From positions 62,001-126,000 of the forward strand of contig VBEG01000024.1 of assembly GCA_005882115.1 (NCBI GenBank): a stretch of 64,000 nt of DNA. Reading direction: 5' to 3'. A model generated the notes under the pieces. That model did no database searches. It had not been told where the DNA came from and saw only the letters and a list, made by a program, of their open reading frames with translations. Every line of letters begins with the position of its first letter. The stretch's first letter is position 1. The DNA comes from Chloroflexota bacterium. GTDB lineage: Bacteria > Chloroflexota > Dormibacteria > Dormibacterales > Dormibacteraceae. The position numbers and the translations under genes were made by a program. This document shows, in pieces, positions 3,487 to 16,052 of the stretch.

Positions 3487-4227
3487 CTAGGTTACCGACG
3501 GTTCGTAGAAGTCACCGCGTTCGCGCACCGCGCGGTCGTCGACCAGCTTCTTCAGGTGCGCACGCATCGTCATCTCGGCCGCGAACATCAACTTCTCGTC
3601 GAGCTGGCCGTACACGCGGCGCGTCAGCTCGAAGGCGGTGCCGCCTCCGCGCTGGACCTCCGCGAGCACCTGCGCCTCGCGTTCCAGGCGATGCTTGCGG
3701 TACTCCTCGATCTTCGCCATCGCGTCGGGCACCGGATCCCAATGCCCAGGAAAAAGTATCCGCGGCTGGAGCGCAGCCAACCGTTCCAGTGATCGCAGGT
3801 ACGCGGCGACATCGCCCTCCGGGTAGGTGACCATCGAGCTGCCCTGGCCGAGGATCAAATCGCCGGTGAACAGGGCGCCATCCAGCGCCAGCAAAAACGC
3901 GAGGTGATCGGCGCTGTGCCCCGGCGTATAGAGCGCGGTGATGTTGAGGTTGCCGACCCGCACGATGTCGCCGTCGTGAAGGTCGGGGTATCGGCGCACG
4001 GTCGCCCCATGCTGCGTGGCAAATCGGTCCGCGAGAGGCAGATGGTCGGGGTGCGAGTGGGTGACGAGGACGACGCCCACCGTGCGCTGGGCGAGGCGCT
4101 TGTTGAGCGCCGCGAGGTGACGGTCGTCGTCTGGGCCGGGGTCGATCACGGCGACGACTGGGCCCGCGTCCACGATCCACGTGTTGGTGCCCGGCCCGGT
4201 GTACGGCCCCGGGTTGGGGGCGACCAT
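3487..4227 (-). CDS. Metallo-beta-lactamase fold hydrolase (LACTB2/glyoxalase II-like)
   Basis: This 246-residue hydrolase carries the zinc motif HSHPDH (H57, H59, D61, H62), then a GHSADHLAF histidine, the metal-bridging aspartate in FTGDLILG and the late GHWDPV histidine, followed by a small C-terminal helical domain. That layout resembles LACTB2-type and glyoxalase II-type enzymes; the substrate is unknown. An upstream open stretch exists, but ATG 4227 is preferred because TTAGGAGTGG lies just upstream and the alternative would overlap the previous gene by 169 bases. The upstream gene stops at 4248, and its stop codon is part of the SD, suggesting coupling. Confidence 0.88.
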   Translation of the reverse strand: MVAPNPGPYTGPGTNTWIVDAGPVVAVIDPGPDDDRHLAALNKRLAQRTVGVVLVTHSHPDHLPLADRFATQHGATVRRYPDLHDGDIVRVGNLNITALYTPGHSADHLAFLLALDGALFTGDLILGQGSSMVTYPEGDVAAYLRSLERLAALQPRILFPGHWDPVPDAMAKIEEYRKHRLEREAQVLAEVQRGGGTAFELTRRVYGQLDEKLMFAAEMTMRAHLKKLVDDRAVRERGDFYEPSVT

Positions 4228-4247
4228 GCGCGAAACCTGAGCCACTC

Positions 4248-4994
4248 CTAACGCGGGCGGTAGGCGGGCAGGAACAGGTCGGCGCCGTCGGTGCGGCTCG
4301 TGTCGAGCCACCCGTCCAGCTGCGTGTCGACGATCAGGCGCACGAGCGGCTCGCCCAGCTCGGGAACCGGGAGCGGTTTGCGCTCGCCCACGCTGGTCAG
4401 GCTGACTTTCCACCACGCTCCAAGGGGCTGCGCGGTCACGCTGAGCGAGTCTCCCAGCAACCAGTCACGCGCGTGGCTGAAGGCCTCGACGAGGAGCGTC
4501 TCAGAGCCGAGGACGGACGCGTCGGCCGGCACGTTGCGCGTGGCGGTCGGAAGGGAGAGATTGAGAACCGCGCCGAGGACAACGCCGCGAGCCCCGTCCT
4601 TCGGCTCGACCGCGGCCGCCTCCAGCCCGGCCGCACGCCGCCCCACCTCCTGCGCCTGCTCAAACAAACCTTCGAGCATGTCCGGACGGCCGAACGCCGC
4701 CTGTCTCGCTGACTCCTGGAGCGCAAGCACCGACGAACGGAGCTTGTGGCCCAGCCGTCCCAGCAGGTAGTCGCGATGCTCCTGCGCGAACCGCTCACCA
4801 AGCTCCGCGGACTGCCTGGCCACCCGCAGCCCTCCGTGCTCCGCCCAGCCGACAAGGCGACCGTTTAGCAAGAGGGCCTCCCACGGCCCCCCGGGGGGCG
4901 GGAACTGCTGGTCGGCAGGGCCGTGCCGCTGGTGATCGGGGACGGACTCCAGGCCGCCGCCGACCCGGACCCACATCGGCGCAACGGCGCTCAT
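4248..4994 (-). CDS. Degenerate histidine-kinase-like protein (DHp-type helix pair)
   Basis: I do not recognise an exact family. The 248-residue protein contains LGRLGHKLRSSVLAL around residues 78-92, which looks like a histidine-kinase H-box with H83, followed by a helical segment typical of a dimerisation domain. The C-terminal 120 residues have the position of an ATPase domain but show no clear N-box, DxGxG or GTGLGL motif. It lies 52 bases downstream of the large GAF kinase in the same direction, so it may be an accessory phosphotransfer or dimerisation partner (inference). The start could also be ATG 5036; I chose 4994 because TTAGAGACTTCT precedes it and overlap with the kinase gene is avoided. 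Confidence 0.65.
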   Translation of the reverse strand: MSAVAPMWVRVGGGLESVPDHQRHGPADQQFPPPGGPWEALLLNGRLVGWAEHGGLRVARQSAELGERFAQEHRDYLLGRLGHKLRSSVLALQESARQAAFGRPDMLEGLFEQAQEVGRRAAGLEAAAVEPKDGARGVVLGAVLNLSLPTATRNVPADASVLGSETLLVEAFSHARDWLLGDSLSVTAQPLGAWWKVSLTSVGERKPLPVPELGEPLVRLIVDTQLDGWLDTSRTDGADLFLPAYRPR

Positions 4995-5046
4995 AGAAGT
5001 CTCTAACGCGGCCGGAGGGCTCGGCTGGCGGCCCATCCGTGTCTTT

Positions 5047-8000
5047 TTAGGTGCGGATCCGCGCGGGGACGGTGAAGCGGAAGGTGGTGCCGCGCTTGTC
5101 GCTTGCGGCGACCCAGATCCGTCCGCCGAACGAGCGCTCGACCACCAACCTGCAGAGATACAGTCCCAGGCCAAGCCCGCCCTGGGAGCGGCTGCGGCCC
5201 GCCGGACCGGTCTTCTCGAACACTGTGTCGAGCGTGCCAGCCGGCAGTCCCTGTCCGTTGTCGGCGACCGTCACCTCGAGCCAGCCGCGCTGGACCTGGC
5301 GAGCCTCGACCTGGACAGAGCTGCTCGTGTACTCAAGGGCATTGCCGATCAGGTTGGTGAGGACCTGCGCGAGGTGGGCCGGCTCGCAGAACGCGGGCGG
5401 TAGGTTGTCGGGGATGTTGACCTGGACGGCCTCGGTCCGCTCGGCGTAGCGGTGATTCAGGACCGCGATCACACCTGGCAGGGCGGACGCGAGGTCCACC
5501 GGCCCCGGGGTCGGCTCGAAATGCCGGGTCTCCAGCTTGGCGATGATCAGCTGGCTCTCGACCAGGCTCAGCAACCGGTCCGATGATTCGTACGCTTCCT
5601 GGAGGAGCGTCCTCCGCCCCAGCGTGTCGATCGTTTCGTCCCACTGCATGATCCCGGCCAGCGTGTTCTTCATCGCGGCCGCCGGGCTCCGCACCTCGTG
5701 GCCGATCGCCCGCAGCATCAAATCCTTGGCTTCGAGGGCCTGGCGCTGCACGGTCACGTCCTCGTGCAGGGTGAGCACGCCGGCCGGCTCACCTTCGAGA
5801 CCGGGGATCACCACCCGGCGCACGTGCACCGTGCGGTCCGGATCGCGCATCCGCAGCTCGATCGTGCCGTCTGCCTCGCCGTCCTCGCCCGGGATCGCGC
5901 CTGCCGCGGCGTACACCTCGTCCGGTTTGCGTCCTGGCATCTCGGATGCCTGGAGGCTGTAGATCGCCTCGATCTCGGGGTTCGCGTAAACGATCCGCCC
6001 GGCCGCGTCCTCGAGCATCACGCCGACTGGCGAGTGGCGCAGGATCGCGTTCATCATCCGGCGCTCGCGGTCGAGGGCGTCCACCAGCTCGAGCTGGCCC
6101 AGCAGCACCGCCGCCTGGCCGGCCAGCACCGCGGCGAGCCTTCGCGTCTCGGCGCCGCCTGAGGTGATTCTCGCGACGAGAAGACCCGCGAGCCGGCCTT
6201 CCACCTGGATCGGGATCGCGAAGGCATCAGGCGTAGCACCGAGCAGGTCGAGAAGCGCACGGAGGCGGCGCGCGCCGGCAGCCGACGTCAGAGCGCGGAG
6301 CAGCTGCGCGCTGTCGGTGACCGGCACCCTGGGCAAGGCGTCGCCGTTGTCGGAGCGGCGCACAAGCTCGCCATCCTCGAGCAACCACAGCTCGCCCTGC
6401 GACCCGGCCAGGGCGCGGTTGACCAGGCGGCCCATCTCTGCGCGCGCGCGGTCAGGTTCGGTCGGGGTGAGCTCAGCGAACGCCGCGACGGCCTCGAGCG
6501 TGCGGATGCGGCCTCGCGTCTCCGCCACCAGGCGGGCGTTTTCGATCGCGACCGCGGCATGGCGCGCGAAGTCCAGCGCCGCCGCGCTCGGCTCCGGCAC
6601 GAGGGTCGAGGCATGGACCGCACCGATTGCACCGACGAGGCGGTCGCCGTACCAGAGGGGAACCATGTTCCACGCGTAGTCATGCGCGGTGCCGCTGACG
6701 ATCCCGGCGGGTGCCACGCGGTCGTCCGCGTTGAGCCCTGCCCAGGCCAGAACCTCTTCGGCCGCGGCGTCACCGCTGCCGCGCGTCGCGGTCACACGAC
6801 CCTCGGTGTCGAAGGCCCAGCACACTGCGCCGGCGCATTCGAGCATCGTCCGGGCCTGGTCTGCGATGTTCGCCACAACGCTCATCAACTCGTGCCCAGC
6901 GAGCGCGGCGAGCTCCTGGATGCGGACCGACTGTGCAAGGGCGAGCTCATTCGCGTGATGGAGGCGCATCGTGCGCAGCGCGATCCCGACCACCGGCATA
7001 GCGGACTCGAGCAGCTTGAGATGTGTGGCCTGGAACTTGGCGCCGTCGTTCCTCATGACCGCCAGGCCCGCGACGACGCGATCGTTCTGGGTGATGGGCG
7101 CCCAAGCCACGTGGCTGGGCGAGCGCGAGAACAGGTAGCTGCCGATTGGACCACCGAGGTCTGCGGGCTCATGCGCCACAGCCTCCACGACGTCTGTTCC
7201 ACCCTCGATCATGCGCCGGAAGAAGGGCGCATTCTCGATGGCGACCGGTCCGATCGGTGTCGATGGCTCGCCATGCGCTGCTGCGAATCCCGCCACAAGG
7301 CCGGCCACGTCGACATACCCGAGCACCATATGCGTTGCCCCGAGGTAGTCACCGACCACCGCGAACACCGCTTCCGCCAGCTGACGTTCGTCGGCCGCGC
7401 TGGCAACGCCCATCTCGAGCAGGTGCAGCGCCTCGAGCCTGGCGCGCTCCGTCTGCGCCTGCGCGAAGTGGTCGGCGTTGGCGAGGGCGAGGCTGACATG
7501 CGCCGCGACGTCCTGCAGGAGCTTGACGTGCCAGTCGTCGAACGCGTCCTCGGTGTAGGACTGCAGGGACAGCATGGCCGTGATCCGGTCGCCGCTGAGG
7601 ACGGGCACCCAGACGAACGACCTGGAAACACGGCGGTTGTCGGAGGGTGGCCCGGAGACGAAGACGGCCGCGCCCTGGGCAACCGTCCACACCTCGCGCT
7701 CGAGCTCCTTGCCTTCAAGTGTCCGCGCCCATGGCGACTTGCGCACGAGGACCGGCTTCCCCGACTCGTAGGCCTCGCGCGAGGGGCCTGTGACAGCCAG
7801 CGCGACGGGCGGCACGACCTCCTCCACCCCACCGACGTACTGGTAGCCCTCGGCCACCGGACCTTCCGCGGTCTGCGTGATCGCGGCGAGGATGAATCCG
7901 TCGAACGTCAGGTTGGCCGAGAGCTCCTCGCGGAGGGTGCGCATGATCGACCAGCGGTCGAGGCTGGACGCAAGCCGGCGTCCGACCGAGTTGACGACCT

Positions 8001-9063
8001 CCAGGCGGCGGCGCTGGTCCTCGATCGCCTCGTAGCTGCGCGCGTTGCGAAGGGCGAGAGCCACCTCGTCGCATACGAGCTCGAGAAACGCGGCGGTCGA
8101 ATCTTCGTAGGCGTACGGGCGCGAGCACCTGATGCCCAGGGCACCCCGCGCGATACCGCCTTCTTTGAGCGGGACCCACAGCGACGAGTGCGGGTCGTGG
8201 GCGATCGCCGGTTTGTTGCCTGCAACGACGGTGCGGGCTGTGGCGGCAAGCTGAGAGCGCGCCGGCAGCCAGCGTGAGGCCGGAGCCTCGTCGCCCGCGA
8301 TACGGAGGTAACGCGCGCGGTCGTTGTCCTCCGGCAGGGTCACCATCTCGAGTGAGTCCACCGGCAAGAGCTCGCGCAACGTGCCGTAGAGACCGGTCAG
8401 AACGGTGGTCTCATCGAGCGTCGAGGTCATCGCGCGCGCGATTCCGTTGAGCGCCTGCAGGCGGCGCGCCTGGTTCCTGGTCAGCTCGTTGAGGGAGGCG
8501 TTCGCGAGGAGGACGCCCAACCGCAGGTGGACGTCCTCGAGGAACTCCTGCTCGGCGGGCGGGACTCGCCGCTTTCGATACGTGTGGTAGATGACGCTGC
8601 CGATCAGCTCGCCCTGGTGCGTGACCGGGACCCAGATCGCCATCTTGCTGCGCACGCTGCCGCCGGGTCCTTTGCCAAACTCCTGCCGGGTTGACTCGAT
8701 GGGCAGCACCGTAGTTTTCGGATTGGCGAACTGGCGCGCGTACGAGGACTCGCGGACCGGCCGGCGGCGCACGTCCTGCAGCACGCCGGAGTCGATCGGC
8801 TGCGAGTGGTACCAGCCCTCTCGCTCGAGCACCTGCAGGTTGATGGCGTCGTAGCCGAATTTGCCCTGGAGACCGCGGTAAAGCACCTGCAGGAGGTCGG
8901 CTTCGGTGACGCATGTCCCGAGCTCGTGGACGAGTGCGCTGACCGATGGCCCGGTTTTGCCGTTGGCTTGCGCCATGGGCGTCGATTTGGGGCGCGCGAC
9001 AGGGCGCGTCACCACGCTGGGCGAGCGATGCGGGCTTTTGTTACGTCGGGCGGAGGTGGCCAT
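5047..9063 (-). CDS. Multi-GAF/PAS sensor histidine kinase
   Basis: This 1338-residue cytoplasmic sensor kinase has no obvious membrane segment. Roughly six GAF-like modules fill residues 45-1000, a PAS module follows (about 1010-1110), then a HisKA domain with AIGHEVRSP (H1122) and an HATPase_c domain with NLIGNALEY (near 1237), DNGQGLP and GGLGLGLYL. It should autophosphorylate and donate to a response regulator; the two receivers at 9162 and 9836 are candidates. ATG 9063 is chosen over GTG 9069 because TATATC lies exactly 7 bases before it with no SD, as in other leaderless starts here. The C-terminus lacks an attached receiver. Ligands of the GAF modules cannot be read from sequence. Confidence 0.93.
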   Translation of the reverse strand: MATSARRNKSPHRSPSVVTRPVARPKSTPMAQANGKTGPSVSALVHELGTCVTEADLLQVLYRGLQGKFGYDAINLQVLEREGWYHSQPIDSGVLQDVRRRPVRESSYARQFANPKTTVLPIESTRQEFGKGPGGSVRSKMAIWVPVTHQGELIGSVIYHTYRKRRVPPAEQEFLEDVHLRLGVLLANASLNELTRNQARRLQALNGIARAMTSTLDETTVLTGLYGTLRELLPVDSLEMVTLPEDNDRARYLRIAGDEAPASRWLPARSQLAATARTVVAGNKPAIAHDPHSSLWVPLKEGGIARGALGIRCSRPYAYEDSTAAFLELVCDEVALALRNARSYEAIEDQRRRLEVVNSVGRRLASSLDRWSIMRTLREELSANLTFDGFILAAITQTAEGPVAEGYQYVGGVEEVVPPVALAVTGPSREAYESGKPVLVRKSPWARTLEGKELEREVWTVAQGAAVFVSGPPSDNRRVSRSFVWVPVLSGDRITAMLSLQSYTEDAFDDWHVKLLQDVAAHVSLALANADHFAQAQTERARLEALHLLEMGVASAADERQLAEAVFAVVGDYLGATHMVLGYVDVAGLVAGFAAAHGEPSTPIGPVAIENAPFFRRMIEGGTDVVEAVAHEPADLGGPIGSYLFSRSPSHVAWAPITQNDRVVAGLAVMRNDGAKFQATHLKLLESAMPVVGIALRTMRLHHANELALAQSVRIQELAALAGHELMSVVANIADQARTMLECAGAVCWAFDTEGRVTATRGSGDAAAEEVLAWAGLNADDRVAPAGIVSGTAHDYAWNMVPLWYGDRLVGAIGAVHASTLVPEPSAAALDFARHAAVAIENARLVAETRGRIRTLEAVAAFAELTPTEPDRARAEMGRLVNRALAGSQGELWLLEDGELVRRSDNGDALPRVPVTDSAQLLRALTSAAGARRLRALLDLLGATPDAFAIPIQVEGRLAGLLVARITSGGAETRRLAAVLAGQAAVLLGQLELVDALDRERRMMNAILRHSPVGVMLEDAAGRIVYANPEIEAIYSLQASEMPGRKPDEVYAAAGAIPGEDGEADGTIELRMRDPDRTVHVRRVVIPGLEGEPAGVLTLHEDVTVQRQALEAKDLMLRAIGHEVRSPAAAMKNTLAGIMQWDETIDTLGRRTLLQEAYESSDRLLSLVESQLIIAKLETRHFEPTPGPVDLASALPGVIAVLNHRYAERTEAVQVNIPDNLPPAFCEPAHLAQVLTNLIGNALEYTSSSVQVEARQVQRGWLEVTVADNGQGLPAGTLDTVFEKTGPAGRSRSQGGLGLGLYLCRLVVERSFGGRIWVAASDKRGTTFRFTVPARIRT

Positions 9064-9161
9064 TGCCACGGATATACTGCGCCAAGAGTGGGCCGCTTCG
9101 GAATTCCCAAGCGTACGCGCGACCTGAGCGGCCTGAGCGAAGGCGAGGAACCCTAGGCGCC

Positions 9162-9593
9162 ATGCCGTTCACACCGCCGAAACCGATCCCGCCTACCCCA
9201 GAAGACCTTCGCGGGTCCACCGTGCTCGTGGTGGACGACGAGCGTGCGTGGCGGGTCATCCTCGAGACCGACCTCAAGATGCTTGGCTACAAAGTGTCGA
9301 TGGCCGAGGACGCCGACCAGGCTCTGGTCCGCGCCCAGGCGGATAAACCGGAGGTGGCGATCATCGACCTGATGCTTCCTGAACCGATGGACGGTTGGGG
9401 CTTGTTGACCGAGCTGCGCGTGCGGGGTCAGAAGGTGCCGGTGATCTTCTACACCGCCTACCCGGTCTTCCCCTCGGGGACCGATGATCCGGATGTGGTC
9501 GGATACATGAGCAAAGCCGTCGACCGGGCAGATCTCTACGCTCTGCTGCCGGTCGCGATCCGGCGCTCGAGGGAGCGCCGGGACTCTGATTAG
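9162..9593 (+). CDS. Single-domain response regulator (CheY-like receiver)
   Basis: The 143-residue protein is a stand-alone receiver domain with a 20-residue proline-rich N-terminal lead. The acidic pair VVDDE (D25, D26), the phospho-acceptor in IIDLMLP (D69), the threonine in FYTAYP (T98) and the lysine in YMSKAV (K118) are all present, so it should be phosphorylatable. There is no output domain. It is transcribed divergently from the large kinase gene; only 98 bases separate the two start codons, making it the prime candidate partner. ATG 9162 is preferred over the longer upstream frame, which would run into the kinase gene. Its stop is followed after 4 bases by the stop of a convergent 40-codon gene. 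Confidence 0.9.
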   Translation: MPFTPPKPIPPTPEDLRGSTVLVVDDERAWRVILETDLKMLGYKVSMAEDADQALVRAQADKPEVAIIDLMLPEPMDGWGLLTELRVRGQKVPVIFYTAYPVFPSGTDDPDVVGYMSKAVDRADLYALLPVAIRRSRERRDSD

Positions 9594-9597
9594 TTGC

Positions 9598-9720
9598 TTA
9601 CCAGCCGAAGGACGAGAAGGCCGCCCAGATGTCTGTCCAGCCCGCTCCGGAGGCGGCCGCCAACGCACCCAGCGCGACAGTCGCGAATACCACGCTCTGG
9701 ACCTTGAATCTCCACGTCAT
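9598..9720 (-). CDS. Short membrane or secreted peptide, 40 residues
   Basis: This small reading frame starts at ATG 9720 and ends in TAA at 9598. The product begins MTWRFKVQSVVFATVALGAL and continues with an Ala-rich stretch and a Trp-rich tail, WTDIWAAFSSFGW. The basic start followed by about 17 hydrophobic residues looks like one transmembrane segment or a signal peptide. An SD-like AAAGGGG lies 10 bases upstream, and codon choice resembles the neighbours. It lies between the receiver gene (convergent, 4 bases apart) and the promoter region of the winged-helix regulator. No function is known to me; a small membrane signal protein for the adjacent two-component genes is only a guess. Confidence 0.6.
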   Translation of the reverse strand: MTWRFKVQSVVFATVALGALAAASGAGWTDIWAAFSSFGW

Positions 9721-9835
9721 CCCCAATTTACCCCTTTGTTTTTCCAATTACGTCAGGCCCGGCACAAAGTATGCGGTGCCCCAGTCGTACTTGGGCATTT
9801 TACTGTAGTCAATCTTCGTAAAAAATAATGTAGGG

Positions 9836-10642
9836 GTGGCCTTGGAAAATCGAAGCCGGACCCGTGAAATCCACAACGCTGTCAGGCGCGAGGTGCGTCT
9901 ACCGCCGCTGCCGCCCGGCCTGGAAGTGTACCGGCCGGCCGATGTCCTGGGTTCGTCTGTCCTAGTCGTCGAGGACGAGGCGGCAATGCTCCAGCAACTG
10001 CGGATCGACCTACACGATCTCGGTTACCGGCCTTCGGTTGCCGCCTCCGTCTCCGAGGCGCAAGAGCTCCTCGAGCACGAGCGCGTGGCAGCGGTGCTGC
10101 TCGACCTCGTCCTGGACGAGCGAGAGGACTCGGGCTTCGAGCTCCTGACCTGGATCCGCGAGCACCATCCCGGCCTTCCAGTGATCGTGCTGTCCGCGGC
10201 CCAGGTCAACTCCGCGTCCATCCGACGCGCCTACGAGCTCGGCGCGAGCTCGTACTTCGTCAAGGGCAACGTGCCCATGGCCCACATCTACTCCGACCTG
10301 GCGGCCCGGCTCGTCGAGCGGGGAACAGGCCGGCCCGGGAGCTACCGTTTCGGCAGGCTGGAGTTCGATCCGACACGGCGCACAGTGCGGCTGGGCGAGC
10401 GGGAAGCTCGCCTCACGCAGCAGCAGGCCGCGCTCGTGCTGTTCCTCGCCCAGGGTTCCAAGCCGGCGACGGCGCGGGACCTGATCCAGGCCGGTCTGTT
10501 TCGCAACAACGCCGCCCATTCGACCGTGCACTCAGCGTTGCTGACCTTGCGGCGCCGGCTGGACGAGCTCGAGCCCGGTCTCGGCGCTACGTTCGTCCAT
10601 GCCTCCGCACGCGGGTACAGCCTGGTGGCCGTCCATGCCTGA
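9836..10642 (+). CDS. Response regulator with winged-helix output (OmpR-like)
   Basis: The 268-residue protein has about 40 extra N-terminal residues, then a receiver domain (42-160) with E46-D47, phospho-acceptor D90 in LLDLVLD, Ser120 at the usual Thr/Ser position and K143, and a C-terminal winged helix (about 170-266) with the OmpR-type trans_reg_C pattern ending in ASARGYSLV. It is expected to bind DNA as a phosphorylation-controlled regulator. The preceding 110 bases are AT-rich and contain its promoter. GTG 9836 sits within an AGGGG sequence, so TTG 9842, five bases after that SD, is a realistic alternative start. The stop overlaps the next gene by 8 bases. Confidence 0.9.
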   Translation: MALENRSRTREIHNAVRREVRLPPLPPGLEVYRPADVLGSSVLVVEDEAAMLQQLRIDLHDLGYRPSVAASVSEAQELLEHERVAAVLLDLVLDEREDSGFELLTWIREHHPGLPVIVLSAAQVNSASIRRAYELGASSYFVKGNVPMAHIYSDLAARLVERGTGRPGSYRFGRLEFDPTRRTVRLGEREARLTQQQAALVLFLAQGSKPATARDLIQAGLFRNNAAHSTVHSALLTLRRRLDELEPGLGATFVHASARGYSLVAVHA

Positions 10643-11819
10643 CGAACACGCGACGACGCCTCTGCCGAGCAAATCCGTGCTCGATGACGTGGTCGACCTG
10701 CGCCGGCATTTTCACAAGCACCCCGAAATCAGCTTCAGCGAGCACGAGACGACGCTCTATTTGAAGGAAAGGCTGCGCGAGCTCGGACTCGATCTGGAGA
10801 CCTGTCCGACCGAGACGGGCGCGGTCGCGTTGCTGGACACCGGCCGCCCGGGCAAGACGGTCATGCTTCGCGCGGACATCGACGCGCTGCCCATCCACGA
10901 AGAGTCGGGTGTCGACTTTCACTCACGCACCGACGGGCGGATGCACGCGTGCGGCCATGACGCCCACATGGCGATCATGCTCGGCGTCGCCAGGACCCTG
11001 ATCGACCGGATCTGGGACGTCAACGGCAAATACCTTTTTGTTTTTCAACCGGCCGAGGAGATCGTCGAAGGCGCCAAAGCGATGATCGCGCGCGGCCTGC
11101 TGGAGCAGCAGCGGCCGGACGTCGTCGTCGGATTGCACATCGTCAGCTTCATGCAGCCTGGAACGGTCGTGACGAGGCCCGGGCTTCTGTGGGCCGGCTC
11201 CGACGCGTTCGACGTGAAGTTCTCCGGACCCGGCGGTCACGGCGGAATGATGGGCCGCCGCGGCAACGTGCTGGCCGCCCAGGCTTTCTTCGTCGAGCGA
11301 CTGCACACGGTCGTCGAAGGACTCGAGCACGAGGGCGTGCAGTGCCATACGACGGTCGGCAATATCAGCAGCGATGGCGCGTGGAACATAATCCCGCGCG
11401 GCGTCCTGGTCCAGGGCAGCCTGCGCACGTTCGACTCCTCGCTCCGCGAGCAGGCGCTGGATCGCCTCCACGACCTGCTGCACGAGACCGAGACCGAGTT
11501 CGAGGTGAACACGAACGTCGACCTCGTGCACGGCACAGTACCGCTGATGAACGAGCCGAACGTGACGCGCAAAGTCCTCGAGGTCGGTGAGGAGCTGATC
11601 GGCGATAAGGCGACCGTGCTCGGCCGTCCGTTGACCGTGAGCGATGACTTCGCCGAGTTTCTGACCCGAATTCCCGGTTGCTACTTCATGCTCGGCGCGC
11701 GGCCGGAGGGCGACACTCCGCCTGCGCACCACTCGCCGGGATTTCGCATCGACGAGAGCGCGCTGCCTGTCGGCGTGAAGGTGCTCGCGGGGGCGGCCTC
11801 TCGACTCGCCGCCGAGTAG
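10635..11819 (+). CDS. M20 family metal-dependent amidohydrolase
   Basis: The 394-residue enzyme belongs to the M20D amidohydrolases (hippurate, IAA-amino acid and N-acyl-amino acid hydrolases), which cut amide bonds of acylated amino acids in the cytosol. Metal motifs are clear: HACGHDAH around residues 104-111, FQPAEE near 140, and the late HHSPGF histidine. RADIDALPI near residue 80 is typical. The real substrate cannot be told. ATG 10635 overlaps the stop of the response-regulator gene by 8 bases (ATGCCTGA), so the two are coupled. A DUF5317 membrane gene follows after 9 bases. Confidence 0.93.
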   Translation: MPDEHATTPLPSKSVLDDVVDLRRHFHKHPEISFSEHETTLYLKERLRELGLDLETCPTETGAVALLDTGRPGKTVMLRADIDALPIHEESGVDFHSRTDGRMHACGHDAHMAIMLGVARTLIDRIWDVNGKYLFVFQPAEEIVEGAKAMIARGLLEQQRPDVVVGLHIVSFMQPGTVVTRPGLLWAGSDAFDVKFSGPGGHGGMMGRRGNVLAAQAFFVERLHTVVEGLEHEGVQCHTTVGNISSDGAWNIIPRGVLVQGSLRTFDSSLREQALDRLHDLLHETETEFEVNTNVDLVHGTVPLMNEPNVTRKVLEVGEELIGDKATVLGRPLTVSDDFAEFLTRIPGCYFMLGARPEGDTPPAHHSPGFRIDESALPVGVKVLAGAASRLAAE

Positions 11820-11828
11820 CGACCCGCC

Positions 11829-12362
11829 ATGCTCTGGGTCTCCGCGATCGTCCTCGGTCTGGTGTTCGGTCTGCTCACCGGCGGAAACCTCACCAACCTC
11901 GCCGGGCTCAAGTTCCGCTGGCCATGGGTGATCGTGGCTGTGATCGTGGTTCGCGAGGCGGTTCTGCTGACACCGCTGAACGCGATCGCAGGCGCGCAAT
12001 ACCTATATCTGGTTGCGCTTGCGGCGATCATCGCGTGGACGGTCTGGCATTTCGATCGCGTCCGCGGCATCTGGCTGATCGCGGTGGGCGCGTCCTTGAA
12101 CCTGCTGGTGATCCTGTTCAACGGAGCCCACATGCCGGTTGCCCCGGAACTCGCGGGTTCGCTGATCCAGCGAGGAAACCTCGGACAGTACACCGTCATG
12201 AGCAGTGCGACGCACCTCAACCTTCTGGGCGATTGGATCAAGCTGGGGCCCCTGCCGGAGGCGTACAGCATCGGAGACGTGCTAATCGCGCTCGGTCTCG
12301 CTATCGTGGTGTTTCTCGCCGTTCGGAATCCCGGCGCCCATAAGGAGCTGACGCGGCCGTGA
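11829..12362 (+). CDS. DUF5317 family membrane protein
   Basis: This 177-residue hydrophobic protein has about five membrane segments and the NGAHMPVAPE and THLNLLGDW segments that recall DUF5317 proteins, found mainly in Firmicutes, Chloroflexi and Actinobacteria. Function is unknown. It lies 9 bases after the M20 gene and overlaps the FtsH-like gene by 4 bases (GTGA), so it is translated from the same message. Placement directly before a membrane protease suggests a possible partner or substrate, but that is inference from position alone. Confidence 0.8.
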   Translation: MLWVSAIVLGLVFGLLTGGNLTNLAGLKFRWPWVIVAVIVVREAVLLTPLNAIAGAQYLYLVALAAIIAWTVWHFDRVRGIWLIAVGASLNLLVILFNGAHMPVAPELAGSLIQRGNLGQYTVMSSATHLNLLGDWIKLGPLPEAYSIGDVLIALGLAIVVFLAVRNPGAHKELTRP

Positions 12363-14476
12363 TCATCTTCTGGATCTTCACTTTCTTCGTCGGCGCCTCG
12401 GCGTTTGCCTTCGGGTTGATCGCGCTGCAGCTCGGCATCGGCTGGTCACTCGCCTACGCGGTGTTGGCGATGCTGCTTGCCCGCGGCATCTTGAGCATCG
12501 TGCGCCGCTCGTTGATCGTCCGCGAGCGCATGACGCCCGAGGCGGACACGAGTAAGCGCACCGTCGAAACCAACCGCGCGATTTTCTGGCGCCGTGCCCT
12601 CTTCGTGGGTGCGATCCCGGCCATCTACTTCGTGGCCATGTACTACATCTTCGGGCTGGCGCCTGAGGACGCGATCGCGACGCTGCCCGCTCTGCTTGCC
12701 CAGGTCTTCACGCAGCTCATCTATCTGTTCTTCTTGCTGGGCGCGAACTTCCTCTTGTTCTTCGGCCCCTTCTACATCTACACGCGCATCGGCAAGACGA
12801 TCATCAACCCCGACGACGCCAACTTCGGGGTCAGCATCGAGGACGTGCGCGGGCAGAAGGCCGCGGTCAAAGAGATGCGCCGCATCCTCGACCTCATCGA
12901 ACACGGCCGGATGTTTGTCAAGGCGGGCGGCAAGCGCGAGCGGGGCGTCCTGATGGTCGGCCCCCCCGGCACCGGCAAGACGATGCTGGCCAAGGCGATT
13001 GCGTCTTCATTGAACGTTCCGATCTATATCGCCAACGGCGGCTCGTTCGCCGGCATGTTCCTCGGCATCGACGCGCTGAGCGTGTACCTGATGGTGCGCG
13101 CGGCTCGCAAGCGAGCCAAGGTGTGGGGCGGCTGCGTCGTCTTCATCGACGAGATTGACGCCCTCGGCCAACGCCGCTCGGGCCAGGGCGGCGGTGCGAT
13201 GGGCGGAATGATGGGAATGATGGGCGGAGGTCAGCTTGGGCTGAACATGCTCCTCGTCCTGATGGACGGAATCGACAACCCGGGATTTTTCGTCAGGCAG
13301 GGCCGTGGCCTTATCAACCTCACCCTCGATGGGCTGTTCATTCCTCGCGTGATTGGCGCCAATGGCAGCAAGGTGAGCCTTCGCATCCCGGCGCTCAAGG
13401 CTCCCGCTTACAACATCATGTTCATCGGCGCCACGAACCGACCCTCCGTCATGGACGAAGCGTTGACTCGACCTGGTCGGTTTGGTCGCCAGATCGTGTT
13501 CCGGCTCCCCAATCGAGAGGACCGCAAGGACATCGCGGCGCTCTACTTCGACAAGAAGCAGCACGATCCGGCGCTCGACACGCCAAGCCGGCGCGATGAG
13601 TTTGCGCGGATCACGGAGCAGTACTCCCCGGCCGACATCGAGCAAGTCCTATCGCTCGCGCTGCTCTACGCCTTTAACGATGGGCGCGACCAGCTCACGT
13701 GGGCAGACATCCGGGAGGCGATGGGCAACGTCGAGGCGGGACTCGCAATCCCGGTGGAGTACACCGAGCGCGACAAGATCGCCGTGGCGAGGCATGAGCT
13801 GGGCCACGCAGTGGCTTCGCATTTCTTCAAGACCGATCACGCGCACGTGCGCCTCTCAATCCGCCGACGCGCGACGACGCACGGTGAGATCGGTGGCTAT
13901 CACAAGGCGCTGCCGACCGAAGAAGAGTGGTTGGAATTCCGATCGCAGCTTGCTGCCGACCTCCGGCACTTCCTCGGCTCGCTTGCCTGCGAGCACGTCT
14001 TTTATGGCGAGAACACGAGCGGTGTGTTCGGAGACCTGAGCAGCGCGACCGCCATCGCATGCCGCATGGTCGGCACGATCGGCATGGGTCCCGACAGGCT
14101 CACACCCGAGATGTCGGCTAAGGCGATCAGCATCGGGGAGCAGCTGATCTCGGTCGCGGAAATCCCCGCGGGGCTCCACGCTCAGGGCACCTGGCAGGGC
14201 GCCGTGCTGAACAACCCGCGCGGCCGGCGGGTGGTCGCGCAGCTACTGGGCGCAGCCTACATCGACGACTGGCGACTCATGAACGTGAACAAGGACGCCA
14301 TCGACCAAGCGGCGGAAGCGTTGATCGTCCAGGGTGAGCTCGTGGGCGATGAGATCAGCGGGCTGCTTGATTCTGTCGGTCTGCGCGAACCGACGGCGGC
14401 CGACCCCTACCCGCCCGAGCTGCCTGCGATCCCCGACGTACGACCTGCCATCGCGCAATCGGAGCAGACGGCCTGA
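12359..14476 (+). CDS. FtsH-like membrane AAA ATPase and zinc protease
   Basis: The 705-residue protein has hydrophobic segments near residues 1-45 and 80-142, an AAA module with GPPGTGKT (201-208), VFIDEID (261-267) and the second region of homology GATNRP...TRPGRFGRQ (358-378), then a zinc peptidase domain with HELGH (H479, E480, H483) and the third-ligand segment GDLSSAT. It should unfold and degrade membrane or cytosolic proteins. Two features differ from ordinary FtsH: a Gly/Met-rich loop at 278-291 and an insertion of about 40 residues (308-350) before the SRH. It is distantly related to classical FtsH and may be a separate paralogue. GTG 12359 overlaps the DUF5317 stop. Confidence 0.9.
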   Translation: MIIFWIFTFFVGASAFAFGLIALQLGIGWSLAYAVLAMLLARGILSIVRRSLIVRERMTPEADTSKRTVETNRAIFWRRALFVGAIPAIYFVAMYYIFGLAPEDAIATLPALLAQVFTQLIYLFFLLGANFLLFFGPFYIYTRIGKTIINPDDANFGVSIEDVRGQKAAVKEMRRILDLIEHGRMFVKAGGKRERGVLMVGPPGTGKTMLAKAIASSLNVPIYIANGGSFAGMFLGIDALSVYLMVRAARKRAKVWGGCVVFIDEIDALGQRRSGQGGGAMGGMMGMMGGGQLGLNMLLVLMDGIDNPGFFVRQGRGLINLTLDGLFIPRVIGANGSKVSLRIPALKAPAYNIMFIGATNRPSVMDEALTRPGRFGRQIVFRLPNREDRKDIAALYFDKKQHDPALDTPSRRDEFARITEQYSPADIEQVLSLALLYAFNDGRDQLTWADIREAMGNVEAGLAIPVEYTERDKIAVARHELGHAVASHFFKTDHAHVRLSIRRRATTHGEIGGYHKALPTEEEWLEFRSQLAADLRHFLGSLACEHVFYGENTSGVFGDLSSATAIACRMVGTIGMGPDRLTPEMSAKAISIGEQLISVAEIPAGLHAQGTWQGAVLNNPRGRRVVAQLLGAAYIDDWRLMNVNKDAIDQAAEALIVQGELVGDEISGLLDSVGLREPTAADPYPPELPAIPDVRPAIAQSEQTA

Positions 14477-14496
14477 GCCGACGCGCGGCGTCGTTT

Positions 14497-15312
14497 GTGA
14501 TCGCCACCGTCGTGGCGGCTTGGCCGATCCAGGCCGGCGCGCAGGATCCTGGCGCGGTGCCCAACGCCCACCACGAGGCTGCTCGCATCATCTCCGCCGA
14601 GCTCGCGATGCGCGACGCCGGGAGCCGGCTGCAGGCGCTGGCGGCTGAGAAACCGGTTGGGCTGGCCGAGACGATGCGTCACGAGCTCGCGATCGCCTCA
14701 GCGACTTTCAATTTCCGGCAGGCCGCGCGCCAGGAGGAGCTGCGCGTCTACGAGCTTGCCGGATATGCGAGTGTGGAGTCAGCGGTCATCCCGCTCTTGC
14801 CATCCGGCGTGCAAGGACCTCTGAGCGATTCGATCGCCGGCCTGCACTCCCTGTACATCCTTGCCGGCATCGACCAGTACTACCTGGTCAATGTGCACTT
14901 CACGCACCCCTACTCCGACGCGGCGCCGCTGGCCTCGCTCCGCTCCTACTACCGGGAGGCCCAGAATCTGTACGGCGTCGACGCGAGCTACCTCGCCTCG
15001 ATCAACTTCATCGAAAGCAACTTCGGGCGCGTCAACGGGCCGTCCTCAGCGGGCGCGATGGGCCCCATGCAGTTCCTGCCCTCGACGTGGAAGAACTACG
15101 GGAACGGCGGCAACATCATGGATCCCCACGCCGCCGTCCTTGCCGCCGCGCGCTACCTCGTCCACTACGGCGCCCCATACGACATGCGAACGGCGATCTG
15201 GCACTACAACCTCGACTACAACTACGTCGACTCGGTGGAGTTCTTTGCCCGCGCCTACCGGGCCGACCCCGGCTGGCTCGACCGGATGTACTACTGGAAC
15301 ACGTATGGATGA
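14497..15312 (+). CDS. Secreted lytic transglycosylase (SLT domain)
   Basis: The product (271 residues from GTG 14497) is a peptidoglycan lytic transglycosylase. The C-terminal half contains the SLT signature: catalytic glutamate in INFIESNFG (E173), then SSAGAMGPMQFLPSTW, and a terminal tyrosine-rich region. The N-terminus ends in WPIQAGAQ, a signal-peptidase site. Read in frame further upstream, the codons give LSRRAASFVIATVVAAWP, a better signal peptide with a basic start, but the only codon available there is CTG 14473, which overlaps the stop of the FtsH-like gene. The true start is therefore uncertain. The middle region (residues 25-140) is helical and family-specific. Confidence 0.85.
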   Translation: MIATVVAAWPIQAGAQDPGAVPNAHHEAARIISAELAMRDAGSRLQALAAEKPVGLAETMRHELAIASATFNFRQAARQEELRVYELAGYASVESAVIPLLPSGVQGPLSDSIAGLHSLYILAGIDQYYLVNVHFTHPYSDAAPLASLRSYYREAQNLYGVDASYLASINFIESNFGRVNGPSSAGAMGPMQFLPSTWKNYGNGGNIMDPHAAVLAAARYLVHYGAPYDMRTAIWHYNLDYNYVDSVEFFARAYRADPGWLDRMYYWNTYG

Positions 15313-15356
15313 AGCAGAGGAATTGCTGCCGTAGTCGATCGTTAGAGTAAGTACTC

Positions 15357-16052
15357 ATGGAGTATCGGATCGAACAGTTGGCCAGGGCGGCCGGCGTGGC
15401 CGTGGACACGATCCGCTTCTACCAGGGCAAAGGCCTCCTCGACGCGCCCCGGCGGGAAGGCCGGGTGACGTTCTACGGGGACGCGCACGTGGAGCGGCTG
15501 AAGCGGATCAAAGAGCTCCAGCAGCAGGGGTTCACCCTCACCGTGATCCAGCGCTTCCTGGCCGGGGAGCTCGAGGCATCCGATGAAGCGCTCGTCGCCG
15601 CGGTCACGCATCCCGCGGCGCCCCAGACCCTGACGCTGAGCGAGCTGGCCGAGCGGAGTGGGGTCGCCGAGCCCCTGCTGGTCAGCCTCGAGCAAGCCGG
15701 GCTTCTGGTCCCGATCACGGGCGGCGACGAGCCCCTCTACCCTGCCGACGACCTGGACGCAATCGCCGCGGGGATGAAGCTCATCTCGGCGGGGGTTCCG
15801 CTTGGCGCGCTGATGGAGCTCGGCAAGGACCATGCCGCCGCGGTGGACCGGACGGCGCGGCAGGCGGTCGACCTTTTCGACCGCTACGTGCGCGAGCGGA
15901 TCCAGGCTGAGGGCGGCGAGACCGAAGCCGCCGAACGCAAGCTGCTGCAGACCTTCAACGACCTGCTCGAAGCGAGCGGGACGCTGGTCCGCCACCACTT
16001 CGAGCGCACATTGCTCCGCGCCGCGCGCGAACACATCGAGAAAAAAGGTTGA
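15357..16052 (+). CDS. MerR family transcriptional regulator
   Basis: The 231-residue protein starts with a MerR helix-turn-helix (residues 3-70: YRIEQLARAAGVAVDTIRFY, then GLLDAPRR). A second stretch near 90-120 (TLSELAERSGVAEPLLVSLE) looks like another MerR-type helix-turn-helix, so it may be a double-HTH member; no metal-binding cysteines are present. The start is set by TAGAGT 8 bases before ATG 15357 with no SD, a leaderless arrangement. The stop overlaps the beginning of the menF frame, but the real menF start is probably about 50 bases further on. Target genes are unknown; the menaquinone genes downstream are candidates. Confidence 0.9.
   Translation: MEYRIEQLARAAGVAVDTIRFYQGKGLLDAPRREGRVTFYGDAHVERLKRIKELQQQGFTLTVIQRFLAGELEASDEALVAAVTHPAAPQTLTLSELAERSGVAEPLLVSLEQAGLLVPITGGDEPLYPADDLDAIAAGMKLISAGVPLGALMELGKDHAAAVDRTARQAVDLFDRYVRERIQAEGGETEAAERKLLQTFNDLLEASGTLVRHHFERTLLRAAREHIEKKG

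Follow-up and report, generated by a model that had tools for sequence, protein, structure and literature searches.

At positions 9598-9720 of the window, by which we mean the whole 64,000-nucleotide stretch of soil-bacterium DNA analysed, the minus strand carries a 40-codon open reading frame (ORF) between two response regulator genes, here RR1 and RR2. A sequence-only reading had singled out this frame for its ATG start, a Shine-Dalgarno-like AAAGGGG, a single hydrophobic helix, a Trp-rich end and its place between the two regulators, and all of these features were recovered. Translation of the reverse complement gives MTWRFKVQSVVFATVALGALAAASGAGWTDIWAAFSSFGW followed by a stop codon, 40 amino acids in all, on a strand that the earlier reading had left unstated; AAAGGGG is present at 9737-9731 on the same strand, hydropathy analysis gives one hydrophobic stretch only, the tail is GWTDIWAAFSSFGW, and both RR1 and RR2 match Response_reg. 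The features of the locus are as follows.

5047-9069, minus strand: GAF-PAS histidine kinase (HK), matching Pfam GAF, PAS and HATPase_c, with HisKA below its cut-off
9162-9593, plus strand: RR1, single-domain receiver protein (Response_reg, E 1.7e-17), convergent neighbour
9560-9581, no strand assigned: GC-rich hairpin just past the peptide stop, in the last codons of RR1
9598-9720, minus strand: ORF of the predicted small membrane protein, 40 codons, ATG at 9720-9718 and stop at 9600-9598
9731-9737, minus strand: Shine-Dalgarno-like AAAGGGG, ten bases before the ATG, within an A/G-rich leader at 9721-9747
9768-9773, minus strand: CATACT, likely -10 element of a peptide promoter, judged by ortholog conservation
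9784-9812, no strand assigned: partly conserved middle part of the intergenic region between the divergent genes, candidate site for a shared regulator, from a 30-region alignment read by eye
9836-10642, plus strand: RR2, receiver domain plus C-terminal output region (Response_reg, E 3.9e-17), divergent neighbour

The peptide ORF thus converges with RR1 and diverges from RR2, for which the start is GTG 9836 or TTG 9842. In the 1340 aa of HK, a single 19-residue window exceeds a hydropathy of 1.6 (1.74), and the kinase is predicted to be soluble, without a clear membrane span. Beyond the kinase, the minus-strand gene at 4248-4994 has no Pfam match, and its GHKLRSS resembles, by eye, a degenerate kinase His box. 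The block also holds an M20 peptidase and a DUF5317 membrane protein (Pfam); the frame of the M20 peptidase overlaps the end of RR2 at 10599-10642, which suggests one operon. These are followed by proteins that we take, by kinship, to be FtsH-like, transglycosylase-like and MerR-like. Named RR2 relatives with identity of at least 71% come from binned genomes titled Candidatus Dormi(i)bacterota, Candidatus Dormibacteraeota or Chloroflexi, and from one "unidentified bacterium". The size of the peptide ORF is unremarkable by itself, with 122 ORFs of at least 30 aa overlapping positions 4000-16000 of the window. It is raised above chance because its place, start, frame and protein are all conserved.

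We followed the ORF through 42 genomes of the window's family, Candidatus Dormibacterota, 17 of which belong to the same genus. Thirty-two of the 42, including G012 and G065, have it intact. One more, the binned and incomplete genome G007, has a broken copy whose frame is disrupted somewhere after residue 5 and before the second half of the helix. Within the genus, where stop codons and frameshifts were looked for, 16 of 17 genomes keep the frame and G007 alone has lost it. Searching with the window peptide alone gave a match of some kind (E up to 0.1) in 16 of the 17 genus genomes, 15 of them at the peptide locus; the G007 match fell elsewhere and G012 gave none. A profile of 31 orthologs run against 110 genomes of the class (E up to 0.01) matched 33, all among the 42 family genomes, and none of the 68 from other families. 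Of 400 genomes drawn from the phylum, 16 matched at E up to 0.0001, and every one belongs to the peptide's own family; at most 19 first-look candidates were scored per genome, so that a weak member might be missed. The alignment of 31 rows used here leaves out G009 contig C199 (DNA the same as in G004), G010 (protein the same as in G002), the broken G007 and six contig rows that repeat G genomes; S960 represents G065, whose own fetched contig has an identical ORF. G009 is one binned genome with two differing copies of the locus (L034 and L038), each near a contig end, and is likely a mixed bin.

Thirty-nine fetched loci carry the peptide ORF (33 distinct places and six repeats, the broken G007 included), and in every one it sits between RR1 and RR2 on the strand opposite to theirs. 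A kinase match is present in 38 of them, the remaining locus stopping at a contig end. The profile search gave no confident copy away from the locus in the 42 family genomes; the few off-locus matches (E 0.002 to 0.007) fall within frames of 283-563 residues. Candidate paralogs in the window's own genome were weak matches in long frames (E 0.17 and 0.28; profile E 0.0066) and were taken as chance. RR2, matched at E up to 1e-60 in 37 of the 42 genomes, extends to genomes without the peptide: G029, G036 and G027 keep HK, RR1 and RR2, and G020 and G032 have RR2. In the last two, a relative of the 4248-4994 gene is head to head with RR2, at the peptide's usual place. On a tree of RR2 from 37 genomes, with the broken G007 scored as peptide-bearing, the peptide label needs at least two changes, where shuffles need 4.8. 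Of the five peptide-free rows, four group together and G027, on a long branch, falls within the rest; a clean split by peptide appears in just 8% of bootstrap trees. A single gain of the peptide is plausible.

Comparison of the 31 distinct orthologs showed fixed ends and a variable tail. All begin Met-Thr-Trp, a count obtained with a search pattern that demanded ATGACNTGG, to which a profile search free of that demand added no member. Residue 6 is Lys or Arg and residue 28 is aromatic (Trp, Tyr or Phe) in all 31, an acidic residue (Asp or Glu) stands at position 30 in 29, and Ala occupies residues 21, 23 and 26 in 28 to 29. Lengths range from 30 to 48 residues, mostly through the tail, which ends in Trp in 22 orthologs, Phe in seven, Leu in one and Ala in one. 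Net charge is +2 or +3 over residues 1-10 in every ortholog and 0 to -4 over the tail, a pattern that in all 31 fits a topology with the N-terminus inside and the C-terminus outside. The residues kept at positions 6, 28 and 30 and the Ala pattern would agree with positive-inside orientation, interface aromatics and small-residue packing. The structure model is a single helix spanning residues 3-38 (pTM 0.42), with mean pLDDT of 92 and 95 over residues 1-20 and 70 and 58 over the remainder. An upstream in-frame start at TTG 9747, which would give 49 aa, was rejected because G001 has only two codons open before the ATG and because the ninth upstream codon is no start in eleven relatives (G008, G014, G015, G018, G024, G030, G031, G061, G063, S960 and G023).

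Substitution patterns point to selection on the protein. Over codons 2-30, pN/pS in the true frame was 0.41 for 14 members of the genus and 0.50 for a set of 30 sequences. For the remaining five frames, the genus values were 1.07, 2.21, 1.14, 0.58 and 2.14, and those of the 30 sequences 1.17, 1.55, 1.25, 0.62 and 1.62. Four of these frames were rejected as the true gene with ratios of 1.07 or more, and the antisense frame (0.58 and 0.62) was read as the shadow of the true one. Over 36 codons, which partly take in the variable tail, the ratio was 0.53 for 15 genus members (bootstrap 0.41 to 0.66) and 0.60 for the family set, and 46% of nucleotide differences in the genus fall at third codon positions. 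Summed over 13 close pairs, hand-chosen and in part sharing members, pN/pS was 0.25 for residues 2-28 versus 0.65 for the tail, with pS of 0.41 and 0.44. Judged from these ratios, the frame is under purifying selection, most strongly over residues 2-28, which makes the helix look like more than a disposable signal.

Conservation extends upstream of the ATG. Thirty of 31 orthologs have AAGGGG in the 30 nt before the ATG, and mean pairwise identity of the 27-base leader is 96% versus 70% for codons 2-30 among 14 genus members, or 82% before the ATG versus 62% in the ORF among 29 sequences. In the window the leader folds worse than shuffles (z +1.9), and a repeat search of the window's own genome with up to three mismatches found it at the peptide locus alone. 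CATACT, looked for within 75 nt, lies 52-54 nt upstream of the ATG in 29 of 31 orthologs; a sigma-70 consensus scan of 9500-9900 returned no promoter pair. In the alignment of 30 intergenic regions (G023 omitted), the space between the two start codons looks like a conserved promoter region common to the peptide and RR2. TTGGAAAA occurs at 9740-9747 and 9842-9849, near both ends of the divergent region and each time oriented with its own transcript; by eye, these copies are kept in many, not all, relatives. At the other end of the gene, the stretch 9550-9605 folds at -23 kcal/mol on the minus strand (z -2.6) and -25.5 on the plus strand (z -2.4). The arms of the 9560-9581 hairpin are perfect in 27 of 31 orthologs, there is no T run, and the hairpin is absent from the terminator scan output; it may act as a bidirectional terminator of a kind without a T run.

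Searches of family collections gave the peptide no name. The window peptide had no Pfam match at E 0.01 or at E 1, and across the 31 orthologs ten Pfam families match one or two members each (best E 0.0096), none of them MgrB. NCBIfam, queried with the window peptide and two orthologs, returned one weak match far below cut-off, solved structures one match at E 2 and PHROGs one at E 0.79. A structured RNA was rejected, the sole Rfam match (E 0.23) lying far below the gathering score. In the open-licence literature, the peptide is unnamed in the titles and abstract beginnings among the matches listed.

Several small membrane proteins offer functional comparisons. SafA and MzrA act on histidine kinases of Escherichia coli, according to excerpts of PMC8404706, and the peptide resembles them by description as a small membrane protein, no family model having matched it convincingly. 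The E. coli PhoQ inhibitor MgrB is described in the same excerpts as a single-pass protein of 47 aa with a basic N-terminus inside and its C-terminus outside, ending in Trp (W47), dependent on C28 and C39, and acting on the membrane kinase PhoQ (PMC8404706). The peptide shares with MgrB, so described, small size, a single pass, a basic N-terminus, a terminal Trp and a two-component link. It differs in the lack of a cysteine pair (one of 31 orthologs, G033, has any cysteine, and that a single one), in the lack of a family match and in an adjacent kinase without a clear membrane span. On the features given in those excerpts, MgrB is the nearest functional likeness; the peptide is not a member of that family, because it has no cysteine pair and no model match. 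In kind, it sits with small single-pass proteins at two-component loci, as a conserved short ORF with one helix and synteny with a kinase and regulators. Streptococcal SHP and ComS pheromone precursors are likewise encoded by short hydrophobic ORFs that adjoin a regulator gene and have aromatic residues at the end, features that the peptide shares. Unlike the SHP and ComS loci, this one has no Rgg- or ComR-type regulator among the eight neighbours searched, and the leader half of the peptide is the more constrained. No Rgg/PlcR-type or membrane receptor was found among the eight block proteins, a set that includes the peptide and one protein without a Pfam match.

Taken from sequence comparison, the peptide is very likely the product of a real protein-coding gene, a small membrane protein that matches no family model, because natural selection keeps the gene in most of the family. 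This part of the sequence-only reading stood. Its further proposal, that the peptide tunes the kinase, draws on gene place and the region shared with RR2 and is unproven, given that the neighbouring kinase looks soluble and that in three relatives HK, RR1 and RR2 are present and the peptide is not. Gene place by itself does not prove function, and HK-RR1-RR2 does not need the peptide, because those three relatives retain the system (and two others have RR2) without it. We give an even chance to the peptide being a single-pass accessory of HK-RR1-RR2, N-terminus in and C-terminus out, co-regulated with RR2. As such, it would be an inner-membrane protein driven by its own promoter within the region common with the divergent RR2, and because that promoter lies in the common region, RR2 probably controls both the peptide and itself. 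RR2 would turn on the peptide as an output and feedback accessory of the system. The invariant cytoplasmic end, with Met-Thr-Trp and basic residues, and the small-residue face of the helix would probably be docking surfaces for a partner that lies within or at the membrane, leaving a short, outward-facing, mostly acidic and species-variable tail with a terminal Trp or Phe. The peptide might thereby couple HK-RR1-RR2 to the membrane or tune another membrane protein. With a neighbouring kinase that looks soluble, the peptide is unlikely at this locus to grip a membrane kinase directly in the manner of MgrB; it would fit better that the peptide recruits a soluble component to the membrane or acts on an unlinked membrane protein.

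The main ambiguity concerns the small residues around positions 24 and 26, which fit either a helix-packing face or a signal-peptidase site. The main rival is a secreted signalling precursor, with residues 1-26 as signal, cleavage after A26 and a pheromone-like product, an aromatic, mostly acidic and species-specific peptide of 4-22 residues. A simple script rule places small residues at -3 and -1 of this site in 26 of 31 orthologs, equally suited to a helix end, and the fast tail (0.65) has fixed ends, with an aromatic-x-acidic start and, in 29 of 31, a final Trp or Phe. Constraint is nevertheless tighter in the supposed signal half (0.25), the eight block proteins include neither a receptor kinase with clear membrane spans nor an exporter, and cleavage in G023 would leave DWYW only. 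The summed tail ratio is also below 1, so no positive selection is shown. We regard such a precursor, and the pheromone-like product it would yield, as unlikely, and keep it in view because the tail behaves like a specificity region. Quite improbable is the more particular proposal of a species-specific peptide signal of uncultured soil Dormibacterota, with production set by RR2, a conserved leader and a fixed C-terminal Trp or Phe; if true, it would mean self-recognition through HK-RR1-RR2 or an unlinked receptor.

A small membrane protein functionally unrelated to the two-component genes, for example a membrane enzyme subunit or a stress peptide, is somewhat unlikely. It would suit the genomes that hold HK, RR1 and RR2 together without the peptide, the confinement of the peptide to one family in the class and phylum searches, and its convergent position with RR1 outside any kinase operon; it sits poorly with the lack of a confident off-locus copy in 42 family genomes and with the conserved region common with RR2. 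That the transcript, as a small regulatory RNA, carries the function and the ORF is a by-product has a slim chance. A leader more conserved than the ORF itself and a strong hairpin after the stop would be expected of such an RNA, but selection acts at the amino-acid level, the leader in the window is less structured than shuffles and Rfam holds no credible match. A chance ORF without product is, given the conservation, very unlikely, a slimmer prospect still. Small ORFs are common in this GC-rich window, and each of three further frames is open in 23 to 25 of the 31 orthologs, yet start, ribosome site and frame are kept in 31 distinct sequences with pN/pS well below 1.

The peptide family is narrow in distribution and ordinary in kind; what is unusual is the pairing of fixed ends with a variable tail. 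With it, an unrecognised protein family, detectable by comparison alone, joins a group whose relatives in this analysis are almost all binned genomes. It also raises the questions of how a soluble kinase system may reach the membrane via a tiny partner, and why a tail that changes in length and sequence retains an aromatic residue at its C-terminus.
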